Shown: positions 35,258 to 58,388 of the stretch, in pieces | How the letters are laid out: every line of letters begins with the position of its first letter | Numbering within the stretch: the first letter of the stretch is position 1 | Assembly (NCBI RefSeq): GCF_024701375.2 | Contig: NZ_CP113910.1 | Coordinates: 5,518,001 to 5,582,000, forward strand | Reading direction: 5' to 3' | DNA: 64,000 nucleotides | From: Streptomyces sp. KMM 9044 | GTDB lineage: Bacteria > Actinomycetota > Actinomycetes > Streptomycetales > Streptomycetaceae | The notes under the pieces: model-generated | What the model saw: the letters and a program-made list of their open reading frames with translations, nothing else | What the model was told of the DNA's origin: nothing | Database searches by the model: none | Translations under genes and position numbers: made by a program

Positions 35258-35420
35258 GCGCCGTCCCGGCGTTGTCAGGGCTGCTTCCCGTCTTCACCGG
35301 CGTTCCCCGGCTCGGACTGCCCTCAGCTCCACCGTCCCGCTGCGACGGCCCGGCGGTGGGGTAGGGGTCGGACCGGGGCGCGGTACTGGCCTTGTGACCA
35401 GCCCGTTTCCCCGGCCCGCC

Positions 35421-35460
35421 CTCCGCACCGGACATGCGACTCTCACCGCATCCGGCGCTC
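35421..35460 (-). ncRNA. Group II intron domain V
   Basis: On the minus strand the catalytic hairpin has the AGC triad at its base, the paired arms GCCGGATGCGG and GTCGCATGTCCGG with the two-base bulge, and a GAGA loop in place of the usual GAAA. It lies 27 nt past the maturase stop, as expected for the end of domain IV to domain V. Confidence 0.7.
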
Positions 35461-55409: not shown

Positions 55410-56474
55410 ATGAGCGCTGTGACCCCCGCAGGAGGCAACACCGCGGCGGGCCGCTCCTGGCCCGCCCTGCTGAACGGCCTGCTCGACGGCCGAGACCTGT
55501 CCGCCGACGACACCGCCTGGGCGATGGACCTGATCATGCGGGGTGAGGCCACCGACGCGCAGATCGCCGGGTTCGCCGTGTCCCTGCGGGCCAAGGGCGA
55601 GACCGTCGAGGAGATCACCGGCTGCGTCCGGGCGATGTACGACCACGCCATCGGCATCGAGGTGCCCGGCGAGACCGTCGACATCGTCGGCACCGGCGGT
55701 GACGGCGCCAAGACGGTGAACATCTCCACGATGTCCTCCATCGTCATCGCCGGCACCGGGGCGAAGGTCGTCAAGCACGGCAACCGGGCCGCCTCCTCCT
55801 CGTCCGGCGCCTCCGACGTCCTCGAGAAGCTCGGCGTCAACCTGGAACTGACCCCGCAGCGGGTCGCCGAGGTCGCCGAGGAGGCCGGGATCACCTTCTG
55901 CTTCGCGGTGAAGTTCCACCCGGCGCTGCGCCACGCGGCGGCCGCGCGAGGGCAGCTGGGCATTCGGACGGTGTTCAACTTCCTCGGCCCGCTGGCCAAC
56001 CCGGCCCGGGTCCGGGCCCAGGCCGTCGGGGTCGCCGACCCGAGGATGGCTCCGATCATGGCCGGCGTGTTCGCCGGACGCGGCCACTCCTCGCTGGTGT
56101 TCCGCGGCGACGACGGTCTCGACGAGCTGACCACCACCGGCCCCTCGACCGTGTGGGTGGTCCGGGACGGCAAGGTGACCGAGGAGCGCTTCGACCCGCG
56201 CGACGCCGGCATCGAGCCCGTGCCGCTGGAGGCCCTGCGCGGCGCCGACGCCTCGTACAACGCGGAGGTCGCCCGGCGGGTGCTGGACGGCGAGCGCGGC
56301 CCGGTGCGGGACGCGGTGCTGCTGAACTCGGCGGCGGCGCTGGTGGCGCTCGAGCCGGGCACGGGGACGCTGGCGGAGCAGATCCGGGCCGGGATGGCCA
56401 GGGCCGCCGAGTCGATCGACTCGGGCACCGCCCGGAGGGTTCTGGAGCGCTGGGTGCTGGTCAGCAACGCGTGA
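55410..56474 (+). CDS. trpD: Anthranilate phosphoribosyltransferase
   Basis: A 354-aa enzyme joining anthranilate and PRPP in tryptophan synthesis. Signature blocks: [56 protein letters not shown] (PRPP/Mg and anthranilate sites), [39 protein letters not shown], and [20 protein letters not shown]. Complete. It stands apart from other trp genes, as is common in streptomycetes. A TAGGGT -10 lies at 55327, and the 5' leader has a tandem repeat. A hairpin follows the stop. Confidence 0.96.
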
Positions 56475-56504
56475 GCCGCGTACGAGCGGTACGGCAGGTG
56501 TGAG

Positions 56505-56540
56505 GGCGCGGTCCGGTCCGTCCAGGATCCGGACCGCGCC
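56505..56540 (+). terminator. trpD terminator
   Basis: Perfect 12-nt arms GGCGCGGTCCGG and CCGGACCGCGCC with a 12-nt loop, 30 bp past the stop. Confidence 0.8.
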
Positions 56541-56580
56541 TTGCGCGTGGTGCGGGCCCGTGTGGCAGGATGCGGGACCA

Positions 56581-56698
56581 GGTCATGAGCGACAGCCATC
56601 AGGCCCCGGCCGGCTGTCCGGCAACCCTCCGTCCGTGGCGGGGTGCCCCGGGTGAGGACCAGGCCGTGAGCAGCAGGGCTCGCGGCAAGCGCGGACCC
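56581..56698 (+). ncRNA. SAM-IV-type S-adenosylmethionine riboswitch
   Basis: The conserved core of the actinobacterial SAM-IV class is present: GGTCATGAGCGACAGCC at the front, then GGCCGGCTGTCCGGCAACCC (the CCGGCAACC block), GGCGGGGTGCCCCGGGTGA, GACCAGG, and the end GGCTCGCGGCAAGCGCGGAC. It is read as RNA ahead of the class V PLP enzyme at 56901. Downstream, CACTCGATCGAGTG (56703-56716) and the GGACCCCT/AGGGGTCC pair (56693-56700 with 56724-56731) form a switchable hairpin. CCTGGTC (56730-56736) can pair with GACCAGG inside the aptamer (56657-56663). Confidence 0.85.
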
Positions 56699-56900
56699 CT
56701 CGCACTCGATCGAGTGAGACACCAGGGGTCCTGGTCGTTCGAGGGAGCCTTCCGTTGAGCAAGCGAATGCGTTAGGGCGCTTCTGACGGGCCTTTCCAGG
56801 CCACAGAGCCCCGCCTCCGCAGATTCCTCTCCCCCATCTCCCACGCTCGAGCCGTGTGCGCTCGCGTGGTGATTCCGCCTGCTGTCACGGGAGTCCGGCC

Positions 56901-58388
56901 ATGTCTCTTTCCACCCTTTCCGCCCTTTCCGTGGTTCCCGCGGTTCCCGTGGTTCCCGCGGTTCCCGTGGTTCCCGTGGTTCCCGCGGTTCCCGTGGTTC
57001 CCGCGGTTCCCGCGGTTCCCGCGGTTCCCGCCGCCGATGCCGTCGCCCCGTCCGGCTGTGCCCCGCTGCCCGTGCTCGGCCGGGACGTCACCGTTCCGCT
57101 CGTCACCGGCGGGGAGGTCACCTACGCCGCGCTCGACTACGCCGCCAGCGCCCCGGCGCTCCAGCGGGTGTGGGACGACGTGGCCGCGTACGTGCCGTAC
57201 TACGGCAGCGTCCACCGCGGCGCCGGTTACCTCTCCCAGCTCTCCACCGAGTTGTTCGAGAACGCCCGCAGGACCGTCGCCGGGTTCCTCGACTGCCGCG
57301 AGCGGGACCAGGTGGTCTTCACCCGGTCCACCACCGACTCGCTCAACCTGCTCGCCGCCGCGCTCCCGGACGACTGCCAGGTCTTCGTCTTCGAGACCGA
57401 GCACCACGCCGCCCTGCTGCCCTGGCGCGGCGCCCGCGTCACCTTCCTCGACGCCCCGGGCAGCCCGGAGCAGGCCGTGCGGGCCCTGGAGCAGGCCCTC
57501 GCCGCCCGTGACCCCCACGGCCCCGCCCTGGTCTGCGTCACCGGCGCCTCCAATGTCACCGGCGAGCTGTGGCCCGTACGGGAGCTGGCCGCCGCCGCCC
57601 ACGCGCACGGCGCCCGGATCGTCCTGGACGCCGCCCAGCTCGCCCCGCACCGCGCGGTGAGCCTGCGCGAGCTGGACGTCGACTGGGTCGCCTTCTCCGG
57701 GCACAAGCTGTACGCCCCGTTCGGCACCGGCGTCCTGGCCGGCCGCGTCGACTGGCTGCGCCGGGCCGAGCCCTACCTCGCGGGCGGCGGCGCCAGCCGC
57801 AGGGTCGCCCGGCGCGCGGACGGGGGAGTGGACGTCCAGTGGCACGAGGGCGCCGCCCGCCACGAGGCCGGCTCGCCCAACGTCATCGGCGCCCACGCCG
57901 TCGCCTCGGCCTGCAAGGCGCTCGGCGCGGCCGGGTTCGGCGCGCTGGCCGCCCACGAGGAGCGGCTGATCCGCACCGTACGGGACGGGCTCGCGGACGT
58001 GCCCGAGGTGCGGTTCCTGTCCCTGTTCGGGGACGGCGCGCCGCGCGTCGGCGTGCTCTCCTTCGTCGTCGACGGCTGGAACAGCTCCCACCTCGCCGCG
58101 GCCCTCTCCGCCGAGTACGGCATCGGCGTACGGGACGGACTCTTCTGCGCCCACCCGCTGCTGCGCGCCCTGCGCGGCGGCGGGCCACAGGACCGGGGCG
58201 AGTGCGGCGCCCCCGGGACGGCGCCCGGGGAGACGTCCCTCGACGCGATCCGCGTCAGCTTCGGCGCGGGCACACCGGACGAACACGTGCAGCGCTTCGT
58301 CCGCGCCGCCCGCGAGCTCGTGCGCGACGGCGCCCGCCGGAGCTACCGCACGGTCGACGGCCGCTGCGTGCCGGACACCTCCGCCTGA
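56901..58388 (+). CDS. Class V PLP-dependent aminotransferase/desulfurase-like enzyme under a SAM riboswitch
   Basis: A 495-aa protein. Residues 11-43 are eleven VVP/AVP tripeptides from a 9-bp minisatellite. The fold-type I enzyme follows: VTYAALDYAASAPALQRVWD, STTDSLNLLAAAL, TGASNVTGELWPVRELA, RIVLDAAQLAPHRAVSLRELDVDWVAFSGHKLYAPFGTGVLAG, with the PLP Lys in FSGHKLYAPFG. The insertion GASRRVARRADGGVDVQWHEGAARHEAGSPNVIG is typical of class V desulfurase relatives. An obvious persulfide cysteine like that of SufS is not seen; C in LFCAHPLL is the nearest. The riboswitch suggests a sulfur/methionine role (inference). Start: ATG 56901 with GGGAG ahead. Confidence 0.92.
   Translation: MSLSTLSALSVVPAVPVVPAVPVVPVVPAVPVVPAVPAVPAVPAADAVAPSGCAPLPVLGRDVTVPLVTGGEVTYAALDYAASAPALQRVWDDVAAYVPYYGSVHRGAGYLSQLSTELFENARRTVAGFLDCRERDQVVFTRSTTDSLNLLAAALPDDCQVFVFETEHHAALLPWRGARVTFLDAPGSPEQAVRALEQALAARDPHGPALVCVTGASNVTGELWPVRELAAAAHAHGARIVLDAAQLAPHRAVSLRELDVDWVAFSGHKLYAPFGTGVLAGRVDWLRRAEPYLAGGGASRRVARRADGGVDVQWHEGAARHEAGSPNVIGAHAVASACKALGAAGFGALAAHEERLIRTVRDGLADVPEVRFLSLFGDGAPRVGVLSFVVDGWNSSHLAAALSAEYGIGVRDGLFCAHPLLRALRGGGPQDRGECGAPGTAPGETSLDAIRVSFGAGTPDEHVQRFVRAARELVRDGARRSYRTVDGRCVPDTSA
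56931..57029 (+). repeat. 9-bp coding minisatellite, eleven copies
   Basis: The unit GYGGTTCCC (Y = C or T) repeats eleven times, keeping the frame and encoding alternating VVP and AVP. It lies right after the first ten codons of the PLP enzyme. Confidence 0.9.

Follow-up and report, generated by a model that had tools for sequence, protein, structure and literature searches.

A conserved micro-ORF between a SAM-IV riboswitch and the gene of a putative cysteine-desulfurase-type enzyme in Streptomyces

The SAM-IV riboswitch and its target gene

The locus described here lies in a stretch of 64,000 nucleotides from Streptomyces sp. KMM 9044, referred to throughout in its full length as the window. 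It contains a SAM-IV riboswitch aptamer (RF00634; 56581..56697, + strand) followed by the gene of a SufS-like class V PLP enzyme of 495 aa (56901..58388, + strand), whose ATG start comes after GGGAG at 56889-56893. The aptamer was recognized by cmscan with 107.6 bits, the gathering score being 38, and the match spans the full RF00634 model (positions 1-116 of 116), confirming the class proposed in a preliminary description of this DNA; a genome search found a single SAM-IV copy, that of the window. SAM binding is a property of the SAM-IV class and is predicted for the RNA encoded in the window.

The preliminary description presented the leader as a SAM-IV riboswitch that has an expression platform and precedes one class V PLP gene, a picture that is supported by the present analysis, and considered the gene an odd target for this riboswitch, which was not borne out by the comparison of genomes. 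In the order sample SAM-IV was detected in 133 of 147 genomes, and the 14 genomes without it displayed weaker matches to the enzyme, the best of them with 181 bits vs 350 to 809 bits in four SAM-IV genomes compared. An ortholog of the enzyme was located within the 1.5-kb flank in 29 of the 30 SAM-IV loci returned from this sample, the exception being L029. At a larger scale, 183 of the 394 genomes of the class sample contain an enzyme match at E 1e-45 or better, and among 40 non-Streptomyces loci of our own choice from these matches, SAM-IV was found upstream of the homolog and on the same strand in 33, the seven without it being L152-L158.

The association of SAM-IV with this gene is also not new, contrary to what had been supposed. 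Streptomyces lividans SLIV_26975 has been listed with SAM-IV, as a cysteine desulfurase (thiamine metabolism) (PMC8079986), and in Streptomyces clavuligerus SAM-IV lies before CRV15_21540, a gene for an aminotransferase class V-fold PLP enzyme with a premature transcription unit in its leader (PMC8269248). Both cases are like the window in aptamer class and kind of target gene, and CRV15_21540 is taken here as the ortholog of the window enzyme, its leader being described in the same terms. They differ from the analysis of the window in that the accounts of these genes in the two papers, in the passages that concern them, name no micro-ORF, platform or enzyme test (PMC8079986, PMC8269248). In Corynebacterium glutamicum, SAM-IV precedes cg1478 (PMC3890552). 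As a separate observation, 35361-35460 on the - strand of the window matches group II introns with 53.4 bits (gathering score 40).

A putative desulfurase beside the SufS clade

The enzyme matches Pfam Aminotran_5 (E 2.2e-71) and its closest named protein, from Streptomyces sp. QTS137, is 97% identical. The class V PLP assignment of the preliminary description therefore stands; its statement that the enzyme has no obvious persulfide cysteine was rejected, because Cys416, which is part of RDGLFCAHP, is aligned to the cysteine in the RTGHHCAMP motif of the cysteine desulfurase 6mri and is invariant in 74 of 74 aligned rows (window protein included). The cysteine of the 6mri motif corresponds to SufS Cys364. 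Also invariant in the 74 rows are His168, His169, Ser266, Gly267, His268, Lys269, Arg411 and Gly413, so that the PLP lysine (Lys269) and the persulfide cysteine (Cys416) occupy the SufS positions in every row, as expected from a type II desulfurase, and the positions of PLP lysine, histidine and persulfide cysteine are common to the enzyme and the SufS type. These residues point to a putative enzyme of the cysteine-desulfurase type, provided with a persulfide cysteine.

In other respects the protein is different from SufS. It scored 236.3 bits with TIGR01979, below the SufS cut-off of 475.1, whereas the SufS of this genome is encoded by a separate gene that scored 578 bits against the same cut-off of 475. 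In a tree from which 20 further Streptomyces family rows were left out, 53 family rows formed a clade beside SufS and apart from it (support 97/91, 98% of bootstrap trees), and the enzyme did not group with the SufS of its own genome; one of the 74 aligned rows, L048, groups with SufS. No suf gene was found among the six neighbouring ORFs scanned and, unlike SufS, the enzyme is under a SAM riboswitch. Conserved operon partners were also sought in 40 loci, some of which end at contig ends, and were rejected, since no ORF cluster occurred in more than four of the 40 (enzyme-overlapping frames aside).

The protein could instead serve sulfur metabolism as a class V PLP enzyme of a different activity, for instance a lyase of cystine or selenocysteine, or a beta-lyase for some other thiol, a possibility that we regard as unlikely. 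It matched 18 NCBIfam models and stayed below the cut-off in every case, it belongs to a clade apart from SufS in a genome that has its own SufS, and GLFCAHP replaces GHHCAMP, the F and the H each being kept in 73 of the 74 rows. Against this stand the Cys, His, Lys and Arg residues, invariant in 74 of 74 rows, and the best solved-structure matches by sequence, which are cysteine desulfurases and a selenocysteine lyase. We continue with the desulfurase-type assignment.

Two further observations concern the coding sequences. The N-terminal extension of the enzyme contains a 9-base tandem repeat (56929..57031, + strand; 11.4 copies with 92% matches by TRF) and is rich in Val, Pro and Ala. The window also includes a second class V gene (L008; 44408-45475, - strand), whose best NCBIfam match, under the cut-off, is NifS.

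Pairing elements of the leader

The leader was compared in 109 same-genus sequences, comprising the window, 28 of the 30 order-sample loci (L029 and L034 were dropped) and 80 fetched leaders. In SAM-IV RNAs the P3 loop forms a pseudoknot with the 3' tail. In the window, the predicted arms are GTCCGTG in the P3 loop (56631..56637, + strand) and CGCGGAC (56690..56696, + strand), complementary with one G-U pair; in the 98 leaders scored, pair 1 was T-T in 17 and the remaining pairs were standard. The 3' arm shares 56693-56696 with stem A, a helix between GGACCCCT (56693..56700, + strand) and its exact complement AGGGGTCC (56724..56731, + strand), and as a consequence of these four shared bases the pseudoknot and stem A cannot fully coexist. 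Stem A is kept in 99 of the 109 leaders, more than expected by chance. Among these 99, pair 4 is C-G in 68, T-A in 18 and T-G in 13, which represents a compensatory change, and pair 8 fails in 20.

A 14-base palindrome, CACTCGATCGAGTG (56703..56716, + strand), which is its own reverse complement, lies in the loop of stem A. This loop is variable and often absent in relatives, and the palindrome was for this reason rejected as a conserved functional part. Another pairing can be drawn between GACCAGG (56657..56663, + strand), formed by the P1 3' strand and linker, and its exact complement CCTGGTC (56730..56736, + strand); it is mostly kept in the 99 leaders with stem A and varies so little that covariation speaks neither for nor against it. 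Direct string checks found all three elements, stem, 14-mer and alternative pairing, exactly as given in the preliminary description. Its platform, consisting of one stem opposed to one alternative pairing, is correct as far as the pairings exist but incomplete, since all 10 of the 109 leaders that lack stem A retain the Shine-Dalgarno motif and the micro-ORF described below.

A micro-ORF conserved in Streptomyces leaders

Downstream of stem A, the window contains a Shine-Dalgarno motif, GAGGGAG (56741..56747, + strand), followed by a micro-ORF that the preliminary description overlooked, TTG AGC AAG CGA ATG CGT TAG (MSKRMR and stop; 56755..56775, + strand). The pattern NTG-nnn-nnn-nnn-ATG-nnn-TAG, seven codons specifying six amino acids, occurs after the aptamer with the same length and frame in 108 of the 109 Streptomyces leaders; the ATG at codon 5 and the TAG were fixed in the search pattern and are invariant among the matches by construction, the result being the fit of 108 of 109. 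In the 99 distinct leaders the start codon is GTG in 94, ATG in three and TTG in two, and GAGGGAG, GAGGAG or AGGGAG is present 6-9 nt 5' of it in all 99. Mean column conservation reached 0.943 in the micro-ORF and 0.936 in the aptamer vs 0.630 in the stem A loop and 0.626 in 56800-56880. The columns aligned with the Shine-Dalgarno are moderately conserved (0.687), which weighs against a role for the micro-ORF, yet the motif is always there. A strict core pattern of the micro-ORF was detected in 256 of 295 same-genus genomes, with one match apiece among the matches listed, and a reversed-pattern control gave zero matches in same-genus genomes among the matches listed. A shorter micro-ORF pattern was found neither in the non-Streptomyces enzyme loci (L121-L160) nor in the other SAM-IV loci (L195-L214).

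Conserved Shine-Dalgarno, start codon, fixed frame and stop are thus located between the aptamer and the gene, as required at sequence level from a uORF system. The Shine-Dalgarno and fixed seven-codon micro-ORF after SAM-IV in Streptomyces leaders are new here; in the open-licence literature, no title listed on SAM-IV with Streptomyces, cysteine desulfurase or class V aminotransferase concerns this micro-ORF, and none of the best-ranked papers on riboswitches and uORFs mentions SAM-IV.

The manner in which the 21-base block varies could also be understood if it were an RNA or DNA element (a processing site, a protein site or a structural partner) in which the open frame is incidental, a reading that we consider unlikely. 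Changes are distributed over the codon positions as 31, 27 and 46 in the 99 distinct leaders, with no concentration at third positions, and CGA occupies codon 4 in 98 of the 99 even though it is little used for Arg (9 of 175 Arg codons counted over four genes of the window); moreover, 56767-56771, as read by eye, can pair downstream in some leaders. This distribution of changes and the near-fixed CGA mean that the conservation of the micro-ORF may be partly that of an RNA and not of a peptide. Against this reading, the first codon is only GTG, ATG or TTG with a Shine-Dalgarno 6-9 nt before it, the length is fixed in 108 leaders, and codon 6 is CGN in 95 of 99, varying mainly at its third base.

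The relatives outside the genus are informative on the origin of this arrangement. In 24 of the 33 non-Streptomyces SAM-IV loci an in-frame, predicted start of the enzyme with a Shine-Dalgarno is placed 31-48 nt 3' of the aptamer; the best enzyme start of the nine remaining loci is nearer or farther, and L145 and L146 are without a Shine-Dalgarno by the rule used. In L282 (G087), a Streptomyces locus that lacks the micro-ORF, the Shine-Dalgarno leads directly to the ATG of the enzyme. Based on the position of the enzyme start in most relatives and in L282, the micro-ORF seems to stand where the enzyme ancestrally had its start. From what is expected of the class, SAM-IV acting on direct targets would block the start when bound to SAM, and by analogy translation of the micro-ORF most likely favours expression of the enzyme.

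Systems combining a riboswitch and a uORF are already known in Mycobacterium tuberculosis. The pe20 Mbox controls a conserved uORF through a platform of the translational type, and premature, Rho-dependent termination takes place in the leader (PMC12810186); the window differs from it in ligand, aptamer, genus and uORF, its micro-ORF having six sense codons and a stop that opens a hairpin-forming repeat. In the metE and ppe2 B12 riboswitches, short translated leader ORFs modulate the downstream gene: the metE uORF (cobalamin) is inside the aptamer and suppresses MetE, while the ppe2 uORF is needed for PPE2 (PMC11260477). The text of both reports (PMC12810186, PMC11260477) makes no mention of SAM-IV or Streptomyces.

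A model for SAM control through the micro-ORF

Taken together, we favour, with a confidence somewhat better than even, a model in which SAM switches off a member of the sulfur/methionine regulon, an enzyme of the cysteine-desulfurase type, by way of the conserved micro-ORF. When SAM is bound, the pseudoknot and the closed aptamer would prevent the formation of stem A and the ribosome site of the micro-ORF would be blocked, leaving an untranslated leader exposed to premature termination, by Rho or at a short hairpin. When SAM is low, stem A would form, a ribosome would translate the micro-ORF and stand on the UAG/hairpin, and transcription would proceed into the gene of the enzyme, which may mobilise cysteine sulfur for the synthesis of homocysteine.

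The short hairpin, GGGC (56775-56778) / GCCC (56808-56811) (56775..56811, + strand), begins at the G of the micro-ORF stop and has an enlarged loop in the window. That G opens GGGC in 102 of 108 leaders and GCCC follows 9-11 nt after it in 98 of 108, the gap in the window being 33 nt. The shortness of the hairpin weighs against the model, as does its tail, which in many cases is not rich in U; in some lineages the tail is CTTCTTC or similar. It is followed by a C-rich segment (56812..56886, + strand), by its composition a candidate for Rho loading, with a median length of 78 nt and mean C and G contents of 0.467 and 0.205 in the 108 leaders. Either the hairpin or the C-rich segment could end transcription, and the composition of the leader together with the precedent of the M. 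tuberculosis Mbox (PMC12810186) suggests the participation of Rho. Two observations weigh against the model at this point: 56776-56886 in the window is less skewed than the mean (C 0.42, G 0.26), and an ORF of six codons is too short to shield about 100 nt of leader against Rho.

Masking of the Shine-Dalgarno was assessed by folding 106 leaders in bound and free models, of which 68 were sorted as bearing stem A and 38 as other, a sorting that was faulty as leaders with GGATCC fell into the second set. With this limitation, the Shine-Dalgarno was harder to open when bound in 40 leaders and easier in 21 of the 68-leader set, with a mean difference of +0.92 kcal/mol vs -0.33 (sd 1.72) when the spacer was shuffled, and in the equally affected 38-leader set it was harder to open in eight and easier in 29. 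The values for the window were 9.5 free and 7.8 bound, opposite to the direction of masking by SAM, and across the 106 leaders, thus sorted, no consistent direction of masking was obtained.

A plain transcriptional switch, in which stem A or the hairpin that follows the micro-ORF serves as intrinsic terminator, CCTGGTC:GACCAGG serves as antiterminator and the 21-base block remains untranslated, seems rather improbable to us. The complementarity of the two heptamers is exact and mostly kept in the 99 leaders, a premature transcript is documented in S. clavuligerus (PMC8269248), and the CTTCTTC-like tails of some lineages would suit a terminator. In the window, however, AGGGGTCC is followed by TGGTCGTTCG (56732-56741) and no T run exists 3' of stem A, at variance with an intrinsic terminator, and a terminator scan of 56400-57000 found none, its loop limit of 3-8 being too small for stem A. 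Stem A is moreover missing in 10 of 109 leaders, and the constant Shine-Dalgarno and exclusive use of GTG, ATG or TTG as start in the 99 distinct leaders also speak against such a switch, as do the predicted Shine-Dalgarno and start of the enzyme within 31-48 nt in 24 of 33 non-Streptomyces loci. Control through the micro-ORF is thus retained as the preferred model.

The SAM regulon and the homocysteine setting

The assignment of the enzyme to a sulfur/methionine regulon is based on the company it keeps. Other SAM-IV targets were collected from 20 loci of 13 genomes, and 19 of these (L213 was excluded) were scanned with NCBIfam through one or two downstream genes each, not always the first, adding up to 20 proteins. 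Above the curated cut-off were MetY (L195, L196, L200), MetX (L197, L203), the O-succinylhomoserine sulfhydrylase MetZ (L202, L204), SsuE (L201) and a luciferase-like monooxygenase (L207). Proteins similar to MetQ/NlpA (L199), taurine dioxygenase (L198), NtaA/DmoA-type monooxygenases (L209), CysQ (L205) and parts of ABC transporters (L210, L211, L212, L214) were matched under the cut-off, and at 1e-25 NCBIfam had no match for L206, L208 or the second gene of L201. The identities of these targets imply that the class of regulator above the enzyme is common to homocysteine synthesis and sulfur scavenging, and the tie to sulfur-amino-acid genes advanced in the preliminary description gains support from the regulator that the enzyme shares with MetY, MetX, MetZ and SsuE genes. 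The same riboswitch class and regulon logic are found where SAM-IV precedes metX, metY and metZ in other actinomycetes, with the difference that those targets are known methionine enzymes; an example among methionine-type targets is Mycobacterium avium MAV_4315 (PMC3774663).

The enzyme might alternatively feed sulfur to iron-sulfur clusters or cofactors and not to methionine, with SAM as a general sulfur signal. Its SufS-like sequence and residues are in agreement with this, as is the listing of the S. lividans gene as a cysteine desulfurase (thiamine metabolism) (PMC8079986). We nevertheless find it doubtful, considering that the genome has a separate SufS above the cut-off, that SAM-IV is upstream of 33 of 40 homologs outside the genus and that its other targets include genes of homocysteine synthesis and sulfur scavenging. 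A role of the enzyme in the methionine branch is hence kept as the working assignment.

Particular arrangements of these riboswitches were observed in two loci. In L131:1956-2291 two divergent SAM-IV elements are found in the same intergenic region and precede, respectively, the desulfurase and a luciferase-like monooxygenase gene. In L130:510-3624 a SAM-I element, divergent to SAM-IV, lies before a gene matching 2OG-Fe(II) oxygenase and WelO5, behind which a weak cyclodipeptide-synthase match and an MFS gene are located.

Concerning the synthesis of homocysteine in this genome, no convincing MetX was found (best E 1.3e-5), and a strong MetX is present in only seven of 40 same-genus genomes sampled; among 61 same-genus genomes, MetA is lacking in 60, the present one included. 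Three Cys/Met PLP genes of good score are present in the genome. Its only S-box, outside the window, is before a threonine-synthase-like gene that overlaps a gene of the ThiS family (L162:1319-3137; G000:C1:4118818-4120636). The best solved-structure match by sequence of the ThiS-family gene is 3dwg_C, which we take to be M. tuberculosis CysO. Over the 394 genomes, in sets copied by hand and ignoring relatedness, the threonine-synthase-like protein occurs in 142 of 152 genomes without MetX vs 109 of 242 with MetX. This evidence suggests that the threonine-synthase-like/CysO-like pair may constitute an alternative route to homocysteine.

A tight tie between the enzyme and this threonine-synthase-like/sulfur-carrier route was rejected. 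In these hand-copied sets, in which a match of E 1e-60 or better was required for the enzyme (148 of 394 genomes) and one of about 1e-60 or better for MetX, with intermediates counted as MetX-absent (G032, G164, G197, G234, G258, G273, G306, G331, G340 and G481), 25 of the 148 enzyme-bearing genomes are without the threonine-synthase-like protein, which means that the link between the two is not a strict one, and outside the genus the presence of the enzyme does not track the absence of MetX (Fisher p 0.46, ignoring relatedness). A broader proposal, which must be seen as speculative and improbable as a whole, is that SAM-IV in Streptomyces no longer acts on the enzyme start, as it would in other actinomycetes, but gates the micro-ORF, that the ribosome halted at the hairpin stop decides the release of the polymerase, and that the desulfurase, with the S-box threonine-synthase-like enzyme and the CysO-like carrier, makes up an undescribed homocysteine route replacing MetX and MetA.

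Biological significance

The enzyme family is a conserved member of the SAM regulon of actinomycetes, and the set of SAM-controlled genes makes homocysteine synthesis in this genome testable. The relatives outside the genus suggest that control was ancestrally exerted directly on the enzyme start, so that the gain of an extra step can be placed and tested. If the model is true, a riboswitch operating through an ORF of six codons, easily missed by gene finders, would alter how SAM control is measured in Streptomyces, and control through the micro-ORF would add a step to the rationing of sulfur in this genus.
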